This document shows, in pieces, positions 33,173-45,983 of a stretch of DNA of 64,000 nt. Within the stretch, counting starts at the first letter, position 1. Every line of letters begins with the position of its first letter. Below the pieces are notes generated by a model, which saw only the letters and a program-made list of their open reading frames with translations, was not told the DNA's origin and did not search any database. Both the position numbers and the translations under genes were made by a program. Source of the DNA: Clostridia bacterium (GTDB taxonomy: Bacteria > Bacillota > Clostridia > Christensenellales > Aristaeellaceae); assembly GCA_017484085.1 (NCBI GenBank), contig JAFUTW010000037.1, forward strand, positions 34,369 to 98,368, written 5' to 3'.

Positions 33173-33733
33173 TTATTCATTATCTACATATGGATCTGTT
33201 AGGGCTGCAATTACTCCGTCGTGATTAATCCATGCATTGTCATATCCGTATCGTGTCTTATATGTTACCATTCCATACCCTCCGGAGAATGGTTCTGCCC
33301 ATTCCCATTGGGGTGGAATTACAATGCTTCCATGATTATCTAAATAACCGAATTTACCGCCAATCGAAACAGGTGCTAAATTCTCCTCGAAACGAAAAAA
33401 ATCATCGAAAATGAATCCACTAAAGTATTCATCGGATGGCAAGTATATCGCTATAGATGCTTGATTGTCATCCTTTAAGATATTATAAACACAAACTTTG
33501 AAACTATCACCAGAAGAATAATCGTTAAAAGAGTATATATCGCTAAGTATAATTCTATCTTCAATCGGGGTATGCATTGGCATTGAGTCAGCATCAAAGA
33601 CTGCGTAGTATGATGTATCATTTTCAATAACTTGTTTGACTTCTGGAATATAATCCTCTTCCGCGAAGCACTGGGCGAAAGGAATGGAGAACACAAATAA
33701 TAATAACCTCAATTTGTAAACAAAGCTAAGCAC
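33173..33733 (-). CDS. Exported WG-repeat-like protein
   Basis: 186 residues. Signal peptide (LRLLLFVFSIPFAQCFAEE) then an unrecognised region, and from about residue 120 a WG/KWG-type unit: FEENLAPVSIGGKFGYLDNH followed by GSIVIPPQWEWAEPFSGGYG and a partial second unit (KTRYGYDNAWINHDGVI). WG repeats form small beta units in secreted bacterial proteins, commonly in interaction roles. The repeat-like end is well supported; the function is unknown. GGAGGAT lies upstream of the ATG. Confidence 0.68.
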   Translation of the reverse strand: MLSFVYKLRLLLFVFSIPFAQCFAEEDYIPEVKQVIENDTSYYAVFDADSMPMHTPIEDRIILSDIYSFNDYSSGDSFKVCVYNILKDDNQASIAIYLPSDEYFSGFIFDDFFRFEENLAPVSIGGKFGYLDNHGSIVIPPQWEWAEPFSGGYGMVTYKTRYGYDNAWINHDGVIAALTDPYVDNE

Positions 33734-38400: not shown

Positions 38401-39567
38401 TTACGCGCCGAGGAGGCTGATGCCGTCGATGTCGAGATCGAAGTACGGGGCAGAGCGATACTCGGACTCGTGGAAGTAGCCGTCGGAGATGACCTCGGTT
38501 TCGGGCTGATAGTCGCCCATGTCATCCACGTCCGCCAGGTAGCTGGTCAGCGTTTCGCCGTTCACGGTGAAGGTGGCGGTGTCGTAAACCTTGACGGAAC
38601 CGTCCTGCAGAGCGGCCTTGACTTCTTCCAGCTTCTGAACGGTGCCGGCAGCGGCGGCGGCCTCGTTCACCTCGGAGAGCTCGACGGAGCCGGTCTCGAT
38701 GGTGCCGGTCCAGTCAGCCTCGATGGCTTCGCCGTTCGCGACGCAGTTAATCATGTGCTCCATGTAGGGGACCCAGTTGATGCGGGAAGAGACGATGAAG
38801 GTGTTGGGGCAGGCGGCGACGGTGCTGCCGTTGTAGGAGACGTCCGGGACACCGGCGTCTTCGCACGCGGTGGGGGCGCCCATGGAGTCGGCATGCTGGC
38901 TGATCAGCTTGCAGCCGTTTCCGATGAGCTTGACGGCGCCTTCCTTCTCGAGGGCTTCGTCATACCAGGAGTTGGTGAAGGTCACTTCCATGGTGACGGT
39001 GGGGCAGACGGAGCGGGCACCCAGGAAGAAAGAGGTGTAGCCGGACTTCACCTCGGCGTAGGGATAAGCGCCGACGTAGCCCATCTTGGCTTCTTCCGCG
39101 GTGAATTCGCCGTTTGCGATCATCTCGTTGAGCTTGAGGCCCGCGGCGACGCCGGCGAGGAAACGGCCCTCGTAGATGGAAGCGAAAGCGTTGTGATAGT
39201 TGTCAAGGCCGACGGTGTGCGCCTGCGTGCCGGTGGCATGGCAGAACTGCACGTCGGTGAACTCCTTGGCAGCCTGGATGAGATAGGACTCATGGCCGAA
39301 GCTGTCCGCGAAGACGATGTTGCAGCCGGCATCGACGAGCTCAGCAGCGGCGTCATAGCACTGCTCGCCTTCTTCGATGTTGGTCTTCAGGATGTACTCG
39401 ACGCCCTGCTTCTCGCAGGCTTCCTTCGCGGCGTTCAGGAAGTTGAGGTCATAAGTGGAGTTCTCATCGTGAAGGAAGATGAAGCCGACCTTCACACCCT
39501 CCGCCACAGCGGCGAAGGAGACGAGGCAGAGCGCGGCGACAAGCACCGCAGCCAGGAACTTTTTCAT
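38401..39567 (-). CDS. BMP-family ABC substrate-binding protein
   Basis: 388 residues; extracytoplasmic binding protein of the nucleoside-type importer downstream. Signal peptide MKKFLAAVLVAALCLVSFAA, then a BMP/PnrA fold: KVGFIFLHDENSTYDLNFLN, CNIVFADSFGHESYLIQAAK, and a QHADSMGAP block typical of the ligand pocket. The only Cys in the signal (AALC) does not make a lipobox, so it looks signal-peptidase-I cleaved (AVA/EG), unusual for a Gram-positive binding protein. AAAGGAGG lies before the ATG. Confidence 0.93.
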   Translation of the reverse strand: MKKFLAAVLVAALCLVSFAAVAEGVKVGFIFLHDENSTYDLNFLNAAKEACEKQGVEYILKTNIEEGEQCYDAAAELVDAGCNIVFADSFGHESYLIQAAKEFTDVQFCHATGTQAHTVGLDNYHNAFASIYEGRFLAGVAAGLKLNEMIANGEFTAEEAKMGYVGAYPYAEVKSGYTSFFLGARSVCPTVTMEVTFTNSWYDEALEKEGAVKLIGNGCKLISQHADSMGAPTACEDAGVPDVSYNGSTVAACPNTFIVSSRINWVPYMEHMINCVANGEAIEADWTGTIETGSVELSEVNEAAAAAGTVQKLEEVKAALQDGSVKVYDTATFTVNGETLTSYLADVDDMGDYQPETEVISDGYFHESEYRSAPYFDLDIDGISLLGA

Positions 39568-39616
39568 GTTTTTTCCTCCTTTGTCCAGTTAAACGCTTGT
39601 GCATTAAGACTGCGCT

Positions 39617-39646
39617 ATCATACAGCAAGAAAGGAGTGCTTGTAAA
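39617..39646 (-). promoter_or_regulatory. Promoter of the nucleoside-importer operon
   Basis: Minus strand: TTTACA (39646-39641), 18-base spacer, TATGAT (39622-39617). About 50 bases upstream of the binding-protein start. The rest of the 277-base gap is A+T-rich and shows no operator I can name. Confidence 0.75.
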
Positions 39647-39770
39647 GAGAAATTAGAAAAATAACAATCGAAAATCGAATATTCAAAGATAATTAGTTAA
39701 AAAGGTTCGCCTTTTTGGCAAAGAGAGGATGAGGTGACGGGCAGCCGGGCCTGTTGCGGCTGTGCCGTGC

Positions 39771-39799
39771 TTTACAGGAAAACGAAAAAGCGGTAAAAT
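39771..39799 (+). promoter_or_regulatory. Promoter of the ZorAB-like-nrdR-deoB operon
   Basis: TTTACA at 39771-39776, 17-base spacer, TAAAAT at 39794-39799, 45 bases before the first start codon. Confidence 0.78.
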
Positions 39800-39844
39800 A
39801 GAGAACATATAAAGGAAGCAAACGGCCTGAGAGGAGATGCAGGC

Positions 39845-41290
39845 ATGACAGAGGCTTTAACGCTGATCAGAAGCTTTTTCTCACTGGAGACGCTGATTTA
39901 TGCGGCGATCGTGCTGGTGACGGTTTTTTCCATGCTCCGCTGCTTTGTGCCCCTGGCGGCCGCGGCATCCCGGCTGCGCAAGGCTGCGCGGACGATGGTG
40001 CTGGAGAACAAGCAGAACAAGGAGCGCAAATCCTGGCGCGATCTGCAGTTCCTGGGCGGACAGATGGAAGCGATCTGGGCAGACTTTCTGCAGAACGCGG
40101 AGCTGCGCGAAGCCCATGGGGAAACCTGCGATGTGTCCCTGTACGTGAATGAGGAATCGGTGATCTACACAGCCGGCAGCGTGGCGCTGGCCGATATCGT
40201 CCCCGGGATCCTGACCTCTCTGGGCATCCTGGGCACTTTCCTGGGGCTGGTCAGAGGCCTGTCGGGCCTCAGGCTGGACGCGGCGGATACTCAGCAGCTG
40301 CTTTCTGCGATGGAACAGCTGATCGGCGGCATGAGCACCGCCTTCCTCACCTCCATCGCCGGCGTCAGCGCGTCGCTGCTGTTCAGCCTGCTCAACAACC
40401 ATTACATGGGCAAATGCCGCAAGGCGATCGACCGGTTCTGCGAGGTCTTCAGCCTGTATGCGATGCCCAAGCCGGTTTCGCAGGAGACGGAGCTGCTGAC
40501 GCTGCAGCAGGAGATGACGGCTTATCTTCGCCAGGCGGCGGATGAGATGGGGCAGAGGCTCGCCTCCCAGATGGAGGGCAGCATCCTGCGCGCCACATTG
40601 CCGATGCAGCGCTCTATGGACAATTTCATCGTCGCCGCGACGCAGGCACAGGTGGAAGGCGTCGACCGGATCGTACAGCTGTTCATCCAGCGCATGAACA
40701 GCGCGCTGGGCGGGGAACTGGAATACCTGCGCAAGAGCCTCGCCGAGGCGCGCAGCGCGCAGCAGGTTTCCTCGCAGGAGCTGACGGCGGCAACGCAGGC
40801 CATTTCCGAAATGGGGCACGACGTCATCAACATGCACCAAATGTCCCAGGGACTGCTGGAGCACTTCAAGGCCTATGTGACGGAGATGGATGGGAGCCGT
40901 GCGCGCGCGGATGAGCAGCAGAAACAGACGGCAGAGGCCATTGCTGCCGCCGAAAAGCAGATCGCCGGGCAGACGCAGCTGCTGGAACGCCTGATAGCGG
41001 CGCAGGATGCGCTGGAGAAGGCGAGCCGGAGCTATCTGGAGGCCTCCGAACGGTTTGCCAAACAGACGTCGCCGAAGCTGAAGGCAGCTTTGCAGAGTGC
41101 CGAAGAAGCCGCGGATCACCTGCAGGAGGGCGCCAGGGCGCTTTCCGGCGCATCGGATCAGCTCGTGCGAGAGAGCGCGGGGCGTGCCGAAGCACTGACG
41201 CAAGCAAGCCGTGAACTCGCGGCAGCGGTGCAGGAGCTGAGCGACGCACTGGCGCAAACAGCCGCAAAGCCGGAGCGTGATGACGCATGA
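39845..41290 (+). CDS. ZorA-like MotA/TolQ/ExbB-family channel protein with long coiled tail
   Basis: 481 residues. Three membrane segments: about 16-40 (LIYAAIVLVTVFSMLRCFVP), 114-138 (ALADIVPGILTSLGILGTFL) and 162-185 (MSTAFLTSIAGVSASLLFSL), the last two forming the MotA/ExbB channel core. The remaining ~290 residues are a predicted cytoplasmic coiled tail rich in Gln, Glu and Ala, which is the ZorA layout rather than flagellar MotA (four segments, short tail). It should form a pentamer around a dimer of the next protein. Its stop overlaps the next start by four bases. Neighbours are not known Zorya effectors. Confidence 0.85.
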   Translation: MTEALTLIRSFFSLETLIYAAIVLVTVFSMLRCFVPLAAAASRLRKAARTMVLENKQNKERKSWRDLQFLGGQMEAIWADFLQNAELREAHGETCDVSLYVNEESVIYTAGSVALADIVPGILTSLGILGTFLGLVRGLSGLRLDAADTQQLLSAMEQLIGGMSTAFLTSIAGVSASLLFSLLNNHYMGKCRKAIDRFCEVFSLYAMPKPVSQETELLTLQQEMTAYLRQAADEMGQRLASQMEGSILRATLPMQRSMDNFIVAATQAQVEGVDRIVQLFIQRMNSALGGELEYLRKSLAEARSAQQVSSQELTAATQAISEMGHDVINMHQMSQGLLEHFKAYVTEMDGSRARADEQQKQTAEAIAAAEKQIAGQTQLLERLIAAQDALEKASRSYLEASERFAKQTSPKLKAALQSAEEAADHLQEGARALSGASDQLVRESAGRAEALTQASRELAAAVQELSDALAQTAAKPERDDA

Positions 41291-42219
41291 AGCCGCGGGG
41301 AAAAGCGAGGCGGTCCGGCGCAAGCTCCAGCTACTGGATCTCCTATTCGGATATGATGGCCGGAATGCTGTTCACCTTTGCGCTGATCCTCTTTATGGCG
41401 ATCTTCCAGCTGGTGGATCTGCAGCAGAAAAAGACCATCGAACTGGAGACCAAGGAAGCGCAGCTCTCCACCCAGCAAAGCATCCTGCTGGATCAGCAGA
41501 GCCAGCTGGAGGATAAGGAAGAGCTGCTGGCAGCGACGACGCTGGCCCTGCAGGAGCAGGAGGAAGAGCTGGAGAAAAACCGTACGGCCCTGTCCTCGGC
41601 GCAGCAGAGCCTGTCCCTACAGCAGAGCAAAATCGAAGAACAGGCAGCGCTGCTGGCTTCCCAGCAGGCGAGGATCGACAAGCTGGTCGGCCTGCGCTCC
41701 GAGATCATCGAAGCGCTGCGCGACGAGCTGCGAAGCGCAGGCGTGGATGCCGGCGTGGACAGGAACACGGGCGCCATCACCTTTTCAGGCGCCGTGCTCT
41801 TCGATATCGGCCGGAACGAGCTGAAGGACAGCGGCAAGGCGCTGCTGGACCGCTTCATCCCGATCTATTTGAGAACGCTGATGAGCGACGAATACGAGGA
41901 GTATATCGGCGAAATCATCATCGAGGGGCATACGGACACCTCCGGCAGCTATCTCAGCAACCTGAAGCTCTCACAGGAGCGGGCGCTTGCGGTCGCCAAC
42001 TATTGCTTTACCGGTGAAAGCATGCAGCTGACATCGAACGAAAGAGCGCTGCTGCAGCAGGTGCTGACGGTAAACGGCCGTTCCTATGCCGATCCAGTGT
42101 ACAGGACGGACGGAACGGTGGATATGGACGCCTCCCGGCGCGTCGTCTTCAAATTCCGCATGAAGGATTCCGAGATGATCGATCAGATGAGCGCTATCTT
42201 GGAGAGAAAAGGAGAATAA
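41287..42219 (+). CDS. ZorB-like MotB/OmpA-domain protein
   Basis: 310 residues. A short basic N-terminus leads to SYWISYSDMMAGMLFTFALI, one membrane segment carrying Asp22 in the position of the proton-carrying Asp of MotB/ZorB. A coiled stalk (about 44-140) follows, then an OmpA-like domain (VLFDIGRNELKDSGKALLDR; IIIEGHTDTSGSYLSNLKLS, ~165-240) with the peptidoglycan-binding motif. It would anchor the motor in the wall and use the ion gradient. Overlaps the upstream gene by ATGA. Confidence 0.88.
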   Translation: MKPRGKARRSGASSSYWISYSDMMAGMLFTFALILFMAIFQLVDLQQKKTIELETKEAQLSTQQSILLDQQSQLEDKEELLAATTLALQEQEEELEKNRTALSSAQQSLSLQQSKIEEQAALLASQQARIDKLVGLRSEIIEALRDELRSAGVDAGVDRNTGAITFSGAVLFDIGRNELKDSGKALLDRFIPIYLRTLMSDEYEEYIGEIIIEGHTDTSGSYLSNLKLSQERALAVANYCFTGESMQLTSNERALLQQVLTVNGRSYADPVYRTDGTVDMDASRRVVFKFRMKDSEMIDQMSAILERKGE

Positions 42220-42223
42220 CCCG

Positions 42224-42754
42224 GTGAAACGGTTTTTAAAGGTACTGGCGGTCTTGGTTCTGGTTCTTACGCTGGCGGCGGCAGGCGTGGCGGCTTACGG
42301 CTGGAGGCACTTTATGCCGGAAGCGGTTTCCTGCCAAACGGCGCTTTTGCCGTCGGCGAAATACGCGCAGCAAAAGCAGGAGTGGTTTTCGCAAGCGCAG
42401 GACGGCGTTTTCCAGGGGGCTCTTGCTGAAAACTGGAAAGACTTCGGCGATGAGGAGCTGGTTTTCTGGCAATGCACCCTGCGCGTGCGAAACGATGGTT
42501 TTTTCCCGGCTGAATGGATCGCACTGGAACCGCAGCCGGTGCCGGGCGACGTAATGATCCTGCCGGACGCGCAGCCAAAGGTCCTGCAGTCGCGCTCGGA
42601 GGGTGACCTGACGGTGACTGTTCTGTGCAGCGAAAAAGCGGCTGAGGCGGAACGGCCCCTGGTGCTCAGCTGTTACGTGCTGGGCCGGAAGACAGAAGCA
42701 ACTTATACGGTGGCAGAAGGCAAACTGATAAAGAAAGAGGGGACAGGCGAATGA
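42224..42754 (+). CDS. Membrane-anchored protein of unknown function, third gene of the ZorAB-like unit
   Basis: 176 residues from GTG 42224, five bases after the ZorB-like stop, so co-translated. One N-terminal membrane segment (FLKVLAVLVLVLTLAAAGVA) then an outer beta-rich domain with VFWQCTLRVRNDGFFPAEWI and GDLTVTVLCSEKAAEAERPL, an immunoglobulin- or FixG-like pattern. It overlaps nrdR by ATGA. It is not similar by eye to ZorC, ZorD or ZorE; a partner role in the motor is inferred from position. Confidence 0.7.
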   Translation: MKRFLKVLAVLVLVLTLAAAGVAAYGWRHFMPEAVSCQTALLPSAKYAQQKQEWFSQAQDGVFQGALAENWKDFGDEELVFWQCTLRVRNDGFFPAEWIALEPQPVPGDVMILPDAQPKVLQSRSEGDLTVTVLCSEKAAEAERPLVLSCYVLGRKTEATYTVAEGKLIKKEGTGE

Positions 42755-43227
42755 AATGCATCTACTGTGGCTGTACCGAAAGCCGGGTCGTCGATTCGCG
42801 GCCGACAGAGGACGGCGCTATCCGCCGCAGGCGCGAATGTGAGGAGTGCAAGCGCCGCTTTACGACTTACGAAAAAGTGGAAATGCTGCCGGTTTACGTC
42901 GTCAAGAAGGACGAACGAAGGGAGCAGTTTGACGCGTCGAAGGTCCGGAGCGGCATCCTGAAAGCCTGCGAAAAGAGACCGATTTCCCTGGACGCCATAG
43001 AGGCGCTGGTGGGGCAGATCGAGACCAAGGTTTGCCAGCAGCCCGACCAGGAAGTCACGACGGAGGAGATCGGCCGCCTGGTGATGAACGGCCTGCGGGA
43101 GCTGGACGAGGTGGCTTACATCCGTTTTGCCTCCGTCTATCGCCAGTTCAAGGACGTACAGTCGTTTATGGAAGAACTGCAGCAGATGCTGGACAAGAAC
43201 CATACCGTGAAGGAGGATGCGCAATGA
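42751..43227 (+). CDS. nrdR: NrdR, ribonucleotide reductase repressor
   Basis: 158 residues. Zinc ribbon with Cys pairs MKCIYCGC and RRECEECKRRF, then an ATP-cone domain (PVYVVKKDERREQFDASKVR to about 140). Represses nrd operons by binding NrdR boxes. It is fused into the operon by ATGA overlaps on both sides. No nrd gene lies in the window. Confidence 0.96.
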   Translation: MKCIYCGCTESRVVDSRPTEDGAIRRRRECEECKRRFTTYEKVEMLPVYVVKKDERREQFDASKVRSGILKACEKRPISLDAIEALVGQIETKVCQQPDQEVTTEEIGRLVMNGLRELDEVAYIRFASVYRQFKDVQSFMEELQQMLDKNHTVKEDAQ

Positions 43228-44396
43228 AGGGGAAAAAGGCAATCCTGATCGTGCTGGACAGCGTCGGGATCGGAGAAGCACCTGATTCGGGCGCCTACGG
43301 TGATGCGGGCGCGGATACGCTGGGCCACATCTGGGCGGCGTGTCACCCGGCCATACCGAATATGATGAGCCTGGGCCTTGGCAACGTGCAGGGCGCGAAG
43401 CTGGGCGGCGGCGTTGAGGCACCGAAGGGCTGCTTCGGCAAATGCCTGGAGGTATCCGCCGGCAAGGATACGACGACCGGACACTGGGAGATCGCCGGCG
43501 TACAGCTGAAAAAGGCGTTTCCCACCTTCCCGGACGGATTCCCGCAGGATTTCATCGAAGCGTTCGAAAAGGCTGTCGGGCGCGGAACGCTGGGCAACAA
43601 ACCGGCCAGCGGCACGGCCATCCTGGATGAACTGGGCGAAGAGCATCTGGCAACAGGCAAACTGATCGTCTACACCTCTGCGGACAGCGTGTTCCAGATT
43701 GCGGCCAATGAGGATATGGTGCCGCCGCAGGAGCTCTACCGCATCTGCCGTATCGCCAGGGAGATGCTGAAGGGCGATCTGGAGGTCGGCCGCGTCATCG
43801 CAAGACCTTTCGTCGGCACGCATGCGGGCGCCTTCAAACGGACGGGCAATCGCAGGGACTTCAGTGCTCTGCCGCCGACGACCTGCTGCGACGTGTTGGC
43901 GGCGGCAGGAAAAACCGTGTACGGCATCGGAAAGATCGAAGACATCTTCGCCGAAAAAGGGATCACGAAGTCTAACCATGCGGCGGGGAATCCGGCCTGC
44001 ATCGAAGCGACCCTGAAGGCCATGGAAGAGGAATACGAAGGCCTGCTGTTTGTGAACCTGGTTGACTTTGACAGCGTATACGGCCACCGCCGCGACGTGA
44101 AAGGCTATGCCGAGGCGCTGGAGGCGTTTGACCGGGCGCTGCCGGAGATCCAGAAACGGATGGGACCGGAGGACCTGCTGATGCTGACGGCGGACCATGG
44201 ATGCGACCCGACCTACAGCGGGACGGATCACACGAGGGAGTACATCCCGATCGTCGCATGGGGCCAGGGCTTCAGGAGCAGCGTGGATCTCGGCGTCCGC
44301 GGGACGTATGCCGACATCAGCGCTACGGTGCTCGATTACTTCGGCTTGCCCAACACCCTCTGCGGCACATCTTTTTTGCCGGAACTGCGCGGCTGA
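43224..44396 (+). CDS. deoB: Phosphopentomutase
   Basis: Interconverts ribose or deoxyribose 1- and 5-phosphates in nucleoside catabolism, downstream of nucleoside phosphorylases such as the one at 11018. 390 residues, alkaline-phosphatase fold: nucleophile region VLDSVGIGEAPDS, GKDTTTGHWEIAG, and metal site TADHGCDPTYSGTDHTREY. The ATG at 43224 overlaps the nrdR stop (ATGA); GAAGGAGG lies upstream. Ends at a hairpin. Confidence 0.97.
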   Translation: MKGKKAILIVLDSVGIGEAPDSGAYGDAGADTLGHIWAACHPAIPNMMSLGLGNVQGAKLGGGVEAPKGCFGKCLEVSAGKDTTTGHWEIAGVQLKKAFPTFPDGFPQDFIEAFEKAVGRGTLGNKPASGTAILDELGEEHLATGKLIVYTSADSVFQIAANEDMVPPQELYRICRIAREMLKGDLEVGRVIARPFVGTHAGAFKRTGNRRDFSALPPTTCCDVLAAAGKTVYGIGKIEDIFAEKGITKSNHAAGNPACIEATLKAMEEEYEGLLFVNLVDFDSVYGHRRDVKGYAEALEAFDRALPEIQKRMGPEDLLMLTADHGCDPTYSGTDHTREYIPIVAWGQGFRSSVDLGVRGTYADISATVLDYFGLPNTLCGTSFLPELRG

Positions 44397-44414
44397 ATCA
44401 GAAAACAGAATAAA

Positions 44415-44446
44415 ACGGACCTCCGCCTGATTTGGCGGAGGTCCGT
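44415..44446. terminator. Terminator between convergent deoB and gltX
   Basis: 13-bp stem ACGGACCTCCGCC/GGCGGAGGTCCGT with a 6-base loop. The T run is better on the minus strand (TTTTATTC), so it mainly serves gltX. Confidence 0.82.
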
Positions 44447-44462
44447 CGGTTTGAAAAGGGGA

Positions 44463-45983
44463 TCAGCCCAGGGCATCCATGGCTTTCTGCAGGCGGTGGA
44501 GGGTTTCCTCGCGGCCGAGCAGGTAGGCCATTTCAAATGCGCCGCCGGGGGTGGCAGCCTTGCCGGTGATCGCGATGCGCAGCGGCCAGAGGATTTGGCC
44601 GTTCTTCATGCCTGTGGCAGGGATGGCGGCCATCACGATGTCGTGCAGGGTGGATTCGGTCCAGTCGGTGATGCTTTCCAGGATGGGCTGTACCAGACGG
44701 AGCGCTTCCTTTGCGATTTCGACAGTCGTTTTGCTCTTCTTGTTGACATACAGTTCGGGGGAGAATTCGGGCATTTCGGCGAGGAAATCGACCATGGAAG
44801 GCAGCTGGCTGAAGACCTCCGTTCGGCCCTGCAGGAGCTCGCACAGCCGCGCGAAATCGGTGCGCGCAGGATCAAGCACCTTTGAGAGCCAGGGCGCCGC
44901 CGCTTCGCGGTAGGCTTCCGGGGACATGCGGCGGATATACTCCGCGTTGAACCAAGTCAGCTTCTCCATATTGAAGATGGCAGGGCTTTTGTTGACACCG
45001 CTTTCATCAAAGACCTTCACGAGGTCCTCCAGGGAGAAGAACTCCTCGTTGGTGCCCTTCGGCGCCCAGCCCAGCAGCGCGATGAAATTGATGATCGCTT
45101 CTTTCAGGTAGCCCTGCTCCAGCAGGTCTTCAAAGGAAGGATCCCCGTAGCGCTTGGAGAGCTTGCGGACGACGGGCTGCGTATTGCCGTTCTCATCCAG
45201 GATGGGCTGTCGTGTGGTTTTGTCCATCAGCACGGACTCCACCATGACGGCCGGCAGGTGCAGATAGAGCGGAGGCTGCCAGCCGAAGGCCTCATACAGC
45301 AGGTTGTACTTGGGGGCGGAGGAGAGATACTCCGTGCCGCGGGTGACATGGGTGATGGCCATCAGGTGGTCGTCCACAACGTTGGCAAAGTTATAGGTGG
45401 GCAGACCGTCCGCCTTGATGAGCACGTTGTCATCCAGGGTGGAGCAGTCCACTTCCACATGGCCGTAAAGCAAATCGTCAAACCCCGCCTTGCCCTCGGT
45501 GGGGACGTTCTGGCGGATGACGTAGGATTCGCCGGCTGCGATGCGGCGTTTGGCTTCAGCCAGGGGGACGTTATGCAGGCACTTCTTGTTGTATTTCCAG
45601 GTTTCACCCTTGGCTTCCGCTTCCCTGCGCTGCTCGTCCAGTTCCTCTTTGGTGCAGAAGCAGCAGTAGGCGCCGCCGCGCTCCACCAGTTCCCAGGCAT
45701 ACTTGGGATAGATATCCCGGCGCTGGGTCTGAATGTACGGGCCGTAATCGCCGCCGACATCCGGGCCTTCGTCGTAAGTGAGGCCCGCCTGCCGCATGCT
45801 CTTGTAGATCAGGTCGACTGCGCCGGGGACCTCGCGCTCCTGATCCGTATCCTCGATGCGGAGGATGAACTTGCCGCCGTGCTTCTTGGCCAGCAGATAG
45901 GTATACAGCGCCGTGCGCAGCCCTCCAAGGTGCAGATAGCCTGTCGGGCTGGGGGCAAAGCGTGTACGAACTTCCTGATTCAT
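44463..45983 (-). CDS. gltX: Glutamyl-tRNA synthetase
   Basis: About 506 residues. Class I motif PSPTGYLHLGGLRTALYTYL and KMSKS-type VRKLSKRYGDP are present, with zinc-type Cys residues near CCFCTKEELDEQR and a C-terminal anticodon-binding helical part. ATG 45983 is preferred over GTG 45992, though the ribosome site is weak. It is downstream of glnS with a 24-base gap, so both share a promoter. The presence of GlnRS suggests this enzyme is discriminating, an inference. Confidence 0.95.
   Translation of the reverse strand: MNQEVRTRFAPSPTGYLHLGGLRTALYTYLLAKKHGGKFILRIEDTDQEREVPGAVDLIYKSMRQAGLTYDEGPDVGGDYGPYIQTQRRDIYPKYAWELVERGGAYCCFCTKEELDEQRREAEAKGETWKYNKKCLHNVPLAEAKRRIAAGESYVIRQNVPTEGKAGFDDLLYGHVEVDCSTLDDNVLIKADGLPTYNFANVVDDHLMAITHVTRGTEYLSSAPKYNLLYEAFGWQPPLYLHLPAVMVESVLMDKTTRQPILDENGNTQPVVRKLSKRYGDPSFEDLLEQGYLKEAIINFIALLGWAPKGTNEEFFSLEDLVKVFDESGVNKSPAIFNMEKLTWFNAEYIRRMSPEAYREAAAPWLSKVLDPARTDFARLCELLQGRTEVFSQLPSMVDFLAEMPEFSPELYVNKKSKTTVEIAKEALRLVQPILESITDWTESTLHDIVMAAIPATGMKNGQILWPLRIAITGKAATPGGAFEMAYLLGREETLHRLQKAMDALG

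Follow-up and report, generated by a model that had tools for sequence, protein, structure and literature searches.

The window, by which we mean the whole 64,000-nucleotide stretch of Clostridia DNA analysed here, comes from a member of the family Aristaeellaceae (the host family) and carries at positions 39845-42754 of its + strand three genes, ORF1, ORF2 and ORF3, of which the first two encode relatives of ZorA and ZorB, the motor subunits of the Zorya anti-phage systems, and the third a small protein with a predicted membrane anchor (Table 1). The three are packed as a single operon that runs into nrdR: 4 bases are shared at the junction of ORF1 with ORF2 and again where ORF3 meets the start of nrdR, and a gap of 4 bases separates ORF2 from ORF3. 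An original prediction, made from the letters of the DNA alone, had described a stand-alone ZorAB-like motor with a novel third component; the locus, with its reading frames, spans, membrane aspartate and coiled tail, is real, and from its account of the spacing the overlaps stand, while the gap it gave as 5 bases is one of 4. Ratios of non-synonymous to synonymous substitution rates (dN/dS, NG86) against the nearest relative, genome G011, are 0.136, 0.053 and 0.173 for ORF1, ORF2 and ORF3 respectively; hence all three look like real genes evolving under purifying selection.

Table 1. Features of the operon and its immediate surroundings (positions in the window)
Feature	Position	Strand	Basis
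Promoter-like site TTTACA-17-TAAAAT	39771..39799	+	Consensus scan, 10/12; upstream of operon
zorA-type motor subunit (ORF1), 481 aa	39845..41290	+	PADLOC ZorA1, Pfam MotA_ExbB, profile vs PDB 8vvn
zorB-type subunit (ORF2), 310 aa	41287..42219	+	PADLOC ZorB1 PDLC00609, Pfam OmpA, profile vs PDB 8qyd
zorB residues 23-135 (after Asp22 to Gly135): remaining span and putative coiled-coil rod	41353..41691	+	Alignment, leucine positions, length rule
ORF3, GTG start, 176 aa: predicted N-terminal membrane anchor and Ig-like beta-sandwich	42224..42754	+	AlphaFold2, family-restricted in samples searched
nrdR	42751..43227	+	Pfam Zn_ribbon_NrdR and ATP-cone

To define the affinities of the motor subunits we compared them with profile libraries and with solved structures. 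ORF1 has hydrophobic stretches at residues ~17-35, ~118-136 and ~165-183, followed by ~300 residues of coiled tail, and thus has the MotA/ExbB channel domain and long cytoplasmic tail expected of a Zorya ZorA. Its best ZorA model is PADLOC ZorA1 (E = 3.3e-23), Pfam MotA_ExbB matches at 2.2e-6, and a profile of its family recovers the ZorA chain of PDB 8vvn at 6.4e-30 (107 bits). ORF2 combines a single N-terminal hydrophobic stretch containing Asp22 with an OmpA-type domain predicted to bind peptidoglycan, the two features by which a Zorya ZorB is recognized; it matches PADLOC ZorB1 (PDLC00609) at 1.2e-69 (232 bits) and Pfam OmpA at 7.1e-11. The profile of the ZorB family recovers ZorB of 8qyd at 2.1e-30 (109 bits) and also aligns to 8vvi and 8vvn, whereas MotB of 6ysf is found at 1.1e-11 and MotB chains score 47-48 bits against the 109 for ZorB. 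There is therefore sequence kinship to both subunits of the solved ZorAB motors, and the profile search that had been proposed as a check places Zorya subunits, and not MotB, as the best relatives. All 21 relatives in the alignment (21 of 21) conserve Asp22 and the motifs EGHxD and LSQxRA without change.

The segment linking the membrane to the wall-binding domain, which starts at Gly135 in the window ZorB, carries leucines at positions 53, 60, 67, 74, 81, 88, 95, 102 and 109. We took as axle length the number of residues between the membrane Asp and the point where the wall-binding domain begins, and measured it in 155 distinct ZorB proteins of the family, a set that includes some extra ZorB-like copies; ten further sequences, L098 (an additional protein from a family genome) and nine rows of the outgroup, gave no measurement. 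The axle takes 22 different lengths, from 113 residues in the window to 344, and length modulo 7 equals 1 in 142 proteins and 4 in the other 13; coiled coils tolerate residue classes three apart. A control distance within the wall domain is 78 residues in 148 of the 155. The chance of 22 lengths falling into some two of seven classes is bounded at 2e-11 if the lengths are independent, and their independence is only partial. This rule of heptad steps argues for a rigid coiled-coil axle, and at 0.15 nm per residue the rod of the window would reach ~14 nm beyond the membrane. The measured relatives from Lachnospiraceae and Oscillospiraceae have axles of 106-183 residues, again of class 1 or 4, the TPR-linked and other distant relatives have axles of 110-151 residues in classes 4, 5 and once 2, and those of three Clostridia Zorya controls are of 43, 46 and 64 residues. 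The long rod is thus a trait of a wider stand-alone group, and the strict heptad rule one seen in the family and its nearest kin. Extra ZorB-type matches in genomes of the family come from a protein of 809 aa at L098:8061-10490 and one of 545 aa at L099:3223-4860 (both as longest frames).

Of 150 family genomes, 140 have ZorB, as do 47 of 50 genera and 82 of the 85 genomes with a completeness of 90% or more and a contamination of 5% or less. When 91 ZorB proteins from 17 genera are placed in a tree, 16 changes of genus label are required, the minimum possible (shuffled labels, mean 73.7); among the 15 genera listed singly, however, g14 takes 2 changes, and support for g25 and g44 is weak. In the 123-row ZorB tree described below, the window groups with same-genus genomes in a clade of 16 rows with a support of 99. 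Genome counts and tree topology together establish the ZorAB operon as a core, vertically inherited possession of the host family. A class-wide draw of 391 genomes yielded a ZorB relative at E <=1e-20 in 55, including the genome of the window itself and one family member. Searches of the host genus, many of whose genomes are incomplete, found FliG in 0 of 29 genomes (controls positive in 4 of 14) and Omp85, the sole outer-membrane marker used, in 0 of 13 (7 of 14 controls); hence, the host is apparently single-membrane and non-flagellated.

The product of ORF3 has a hydrophobic stretch at residues 4-22 preceded by a net positive N terminus, on account of which the remainder is predicted to lie outside the membrane. 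Scans of Pfam and PADLOC at E 1 and of PHROGs at 0.001 gave no match, and one NCBIfam model matched at 0.034. An AlphaFold2 model (pLDDT 94) presents a membrane helix and an Ig-like beta-sandwich, for which a fold search against solved structures returned none at E <=0.001, the best being generic beta-sandwiches at 1.8e-3. By profile, ORF3 is found in 134 of 150 family genomes, a count that includes weak or partial matches in G074 (6.8e-4), G601 (4.7e-6) and G080 (partial). A neighbourhood survey of the third gene had been set beforehand as a test, and it came out in favour of an association: ZorB and ORF3 occur together in 131 of the 150 genomes, ZorB alone in 9, ORF3 alone in 3 and neither in 7 (Fisher p 4e-6, a figure that ignores kinship and shared incompleteness). 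The two are linked in 80 genomes, with gaps of 3-148 bases from match to match. Among 134 loci examined, 70 have ORF3 next after zorB, or 63 of 125 once near-duplicates are removed (both sets with outgroups); for distinct family loci the figure is 63 of 90, and these belong to two deep branches. Of the 70 linked loci (near-duplicates included), 64 have overlapping frames or an interval shorter than 40 bases. Outside the family, the 391 class genomes gave two weak matches to the N-terminal part (E ~1e-5) and 398 phylum genomes none at 1e-5 except the genome of the window. In the samples searched, ORF3 thus has no convincing match beyond the host family, to which it appears restricted. In four loci (L084, L092, L254 and L257) unlinked ORF3-like genes adjoin a polA-like gene (by eye), and a gene of the same cluster also occurs in L086 and L088.

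One branch, comprising 17 of the 90 family loci, has a different single-span protein, c12, in the slot of ORF3. Its AlphaFold2 model is weak (pLDDT 68), so that a possible NTF2/SnoaL-like identity, weakly indicated, leans on Pfam hints (E 0.05 and 0.12) and the shape of the model. An ORF3-like gene lies elsewhere in seven c12 genomes examined (G029, G031, G033, G048, G059, G562 and G574), and the profile search found no ORF3 match in another, G038. In G031 (genus g4; L256:3392-7726) an 883-aa gene, rhamnosidase-like by eye, is inserted between zorB and c12. A coiled-coil protein of 332-960 aa (longest frames) is encoded near c12 in 11 of the 17 loci, including L202:4944-6512.

In 12 of the 90 distinct family loci the last 8-55 bases of ORF3 are shared with a following Peptidase_M15 gene, of the family of VanX/DdpX-type D-Ala-D-Ala dipeptidases; these figures are upper bounds, being counted from longest-frame starts. 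The assignment (PF01427) is by Pfam in four scanned proteins and by a profile built for this analysis in the remaining ones. At a 13th locus, L209, ORF3 and the dipeptidase form one reading frame, and at L207 the dipeptidase match is distant and on the opposite strand. When sampled by genus, the dipeptidase adjoins ORF3 in 5 of 5 genomes of g31 and 5 of 5 of g7, and none lies beside ORF3 within the stretches fetched from the other 15 of the 17 genera. Two g7 genomes have the genes fused, G034 into a frame of 390 aa and G081 into one of 399 aa (this being the gene of L209); the other three genomes keep two genes, which adjoin or overlap each other. The NCBIfam VanX model scores 232 and 194 bits, below its equivalog cut-off of 320; the proteins carry SxH and EWWH motifs, which we take to be active-site-like, and most of those listed start in signal-peptide-like fashion (by eye).

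With the Zorya systems of known structure (PDB 8vvn, 8vvi and 8qyd) the operon shares a ZorA channel domain with a long tail and a ZorB with a WxSxxD membrane motif and an OmpA-type domain bearing EGHxD and LSQxRA. It differs from them in its core, vertical inheritance, in the new third gene, in the longer axle (at least 113 residues in the family against the three controls above), in falling below all listed NCBIfam Zorya cut-offs (e.g. ZorB2 84.8 of 400 bits, ZorA_2 76.4 of 100), and in having no adjacent ZorC, ZorD or ZorE. The original prediction had likewise seen no known effector, and indeed the genes beside zorAB in the window belong to other families (ZorF and ZorG were not searched), and ZorE was found in none of 29 genus genomes, with the control positive in Haloferax only. 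The ZorD model does match in 29 of 29 genus genomes, but also in 10 of 14 control genomes. Along its 1171 positions, the 100 strongest genus matches are confined to 420-969, and the weaker matches are isolated short segments, some of them at 1005-1142. In no case are the first 400 positions reached, whereas the match of the true ZorD of L140 runs from 41 to 1164. These matches therefore appear to be a generic helicase core together with short weak pieces. A ZorC search of the window's own genome was uninformative, as the controls stayed silent, though the same Pfam model matches ZorC of L139 and L140. Three true Zorya controls were recovered among the class members, namely L139 and L140 with ZorC and ZorD and L151 with ZorE after zorB, which indicates that effectors beside zorAB are recognized when present. 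In a 123-row ZorB tree (L096 and L098 dropped, 9 near-duplicates removed earlier) these three fall outside a 99-supported clade of 104 rows, made up of the family, Lachnospiraceae, Oscillospiraceae and two other relatives (L141 and L154); L151 is a long branch of unsure placement. Zorya types are described in PMC11890865 as having the differential distribution typical of anti-phage systems, and such patchiness is not seen in the family, with its 140 of 150 genomes and genus-congruent tree. An ordinary Zorya system was rejected on the absence of an adjacent effector and the core inheritance. In other Clostridia families, ZorAB-like pairs are followed by a protein of ~300-370 aa (L144-L148, L150, L152 and L155); of two such proteins scanned, that of L144 contains TPR repeats and that of L146 has no clear family, and these loci may form another stand-alone type, with a third gene particular to it.

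Among other ion-driven motors, MotA-MotB has the same combination of a channel with an OmpA-type wall anchor and an Asp in the membrane span, but its MotB chains score far below ZorB, and a flagellar stator was rejected given the lack of FliG in the 29 genus genomes. ExbBD and TolQR share the channel fold of the A subunit (Pfam MotA_ExbB) and differ in that the B subunit of the family is of the OmpA type; since Omp85 was found in none of 13 genus genomes, an outer membrane on which a Tol/Ton system could act is not indicated, and this candidate was likewise rejected. Among the matches listed, no paper describes, by its title or the start of its abstract, a ZorAB operon that stands alone with a third gene of this kind, which does not amount to showing its absence in print; the operon is also not described in the portions available of PMC11890865, PMC12505986, PMC9389320, PMC8565338 and PMC13192584. 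Coiled-coil engineering of MotB has a reported precedent (PMC10659934).

These observations lead us to favour, as probable, the reading that the operon encodes an ion-driven 5:2 motor of the ZorAB type, coupled to the cell wall and passed on vertically as core equipment of these apparently single-membrane, non-flagellated gut Clostridia, with ORF3 as its partner at the wall. For the assembly and rotation of the motor, the ion that drives it, the topology of ORF3, the way ORF3 touches the motor and what the whole is for, we infer the following. Five ORF1 subunits would surround a dimer of ORF2, and ion flow past Asp22 would turn the ORF1 ring around the ORF2 axle, as suggested by the conserved Asp and the channel domain. 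The OmpA-type domain, at the end of the long rigid coiled-coil rod, would fix the axle to peptidoglycan, the rod keeping this anchor at a set distance and register, and the tail of ORF1 would face the cytoplasm. ORF3 would lie on the outer face, positioned to meet the rod or wall enzymes, and is probably an adaptor or gate for wall-modifying enzymes, such as the D-Ala-D-Ala dipeptidase of some relatives. The motor might thereby remodel the wall by torque or report the state of the wall inwards through the ZorA tail. A more ambitious version, which we advance only tentatively and think somewhat doubtful, is a rotary machine of the thick Gram-positive-type wall, with a heptad-extended axle and an Ig-like partner that couples rotation to wall peptidases, and from which, or alongside which, the motors of Zorya were recruited. 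ZorAB motors are known from phage defence, and here a ZorAB clade is core equipment of a whole family; the operon hence offers a relative with which to study what such a motor moves or senses. Should the link to the dipeptidase prove functional, it would be a case of an ion-driven motor that works on the wall of bacteria with a single membrane.

Several observations weigh against a wall-coupled motor with ORF3 as its dedicated partner. The long rod also occurs outside the host family; ORF3 is unlinked to ZorB in 51 of the 131 genomes with both, 3 genomes have ORF3 with no ZorB match and 9 have ZorB with no ORF3. Only one branch shows the dipeptidase link, and the window locus has no VanX/DdpX-type gene. 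By eye, the three unfused g7 dipeptidases and L275 have no signal-peptide-like start, and the fused proteins have a signal-peptide-like stretch between their domains, on account of which they may be cut apart. It is accordingly in part that the claim of a partner gene holds: the co-occurrence favours it, and the unlinked copies and the presence of c12 in the slot of one branch do not. These last points, along with the faster evolution of ORF3, could mean that ZorA and ZorB function as a pair by themselves and that ORF3 is an unrelated small envelope protein sharing the operon. We regard this as rather unlikely, in view of the recurrence of ORF3 behind zorB in two deep branches, the tight spacing of nearly all the linked loci, and a co-occurrence that persists while the wider neighbourhood shifts between genera.

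The original prediction had left open the choice between a domesticated envelope machine and a new defence type, and it is the former that we favour because the genes are core and vertical and one branch ties them to a dipeptidase. An anti-phage variant of Zorya, with ORF3 or a protein encoded elsewhere as effector and fixed in the lineage as a core defence, would explain why ORF1 and ORF2 find their best matches in ZorA and ZorB (PDLC00609), and Zorya types do differ in their extra genes, type III using other partners, according to PMC8565338. The ZorD matches throughout the genus could be read in the same sense, were they not also common in controls and devoid of the first 400 model positions. 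PMC8565338 also reports that ZorAB by itself is insufficient for defence; together with the lack of ZorE matches in the genus, the near-universal vertical occurrence, at odds with the distribution of Zorya, and the position of the true Zorya controls outside the family's clade and with shorter axles, this makes an anti-phage role of the operon poorly supported and this explanation, in our judgement, improbable. It is also conceivable that what the motor powers is not wall metabolism but some activity at the cell surface, for instance secretion or a gliding-like movement. Gliding and type 9 secretion are driven by related 5:2 motors (PMC11890865), and in three Clostridia loci (L136:5399-14802, L137 and L138) a ZorAB-like pair and a protein of 391-402 aa precede genes resembling type IV pilus ATPase and assembly genes (by eye). 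No accompanying surface or secretion gene is seen by eye in the listed family neighbourhoods, and the axle, with an end that binds the wall, and the linked dipeptidase both suggest the wall instead; we hence consider a surface process very unlikely. In these three loci (L136-L138) the usual membrane Asp was not found in ZorB, and the third protein of L137 has no match in Pfam or PADLOC.

As to the surroundings of the operon, the neighbours named by the original prediction are supported by Pfam, nrdR by both of its domains and deoB, downstream of nrdR, by a metalloenzyme domain in its frame. Upstream and divergent lies a gene for a Bmp-type substrate-binding protein with ABC transporter genes. 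The wider neighbourhood differs between genera, and among the loci listed the window and two others of the same genus (L062 and L063) are the only ones where nrdR lies directly beside the operon; nrdR is thus no conserved partner, and nrdR and deoB were rejected as partners of the motor on this comparison, although nrdR is perhaps co-transcribed with the operon at the window. The consensus promoter claimed upstream of ORF1 exists as a site, but the evidence for it as a promoter is weak, as it is not clearly above expectation: 3 such sites occur on both strands of 39500-44600, with a mean of 1.2 (sd 0.9) in shuffles. A divergent gene for a MarR-type regulator (by Pfam of one copy) lies <=700 bases upstream of zorA in 22 of 63 ORF3 loci (e.g. 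L065:7708-8280) and is absent at the window. Further upstream in the window, at 33176-33733, is a gene for a protein with a WG repeat match.

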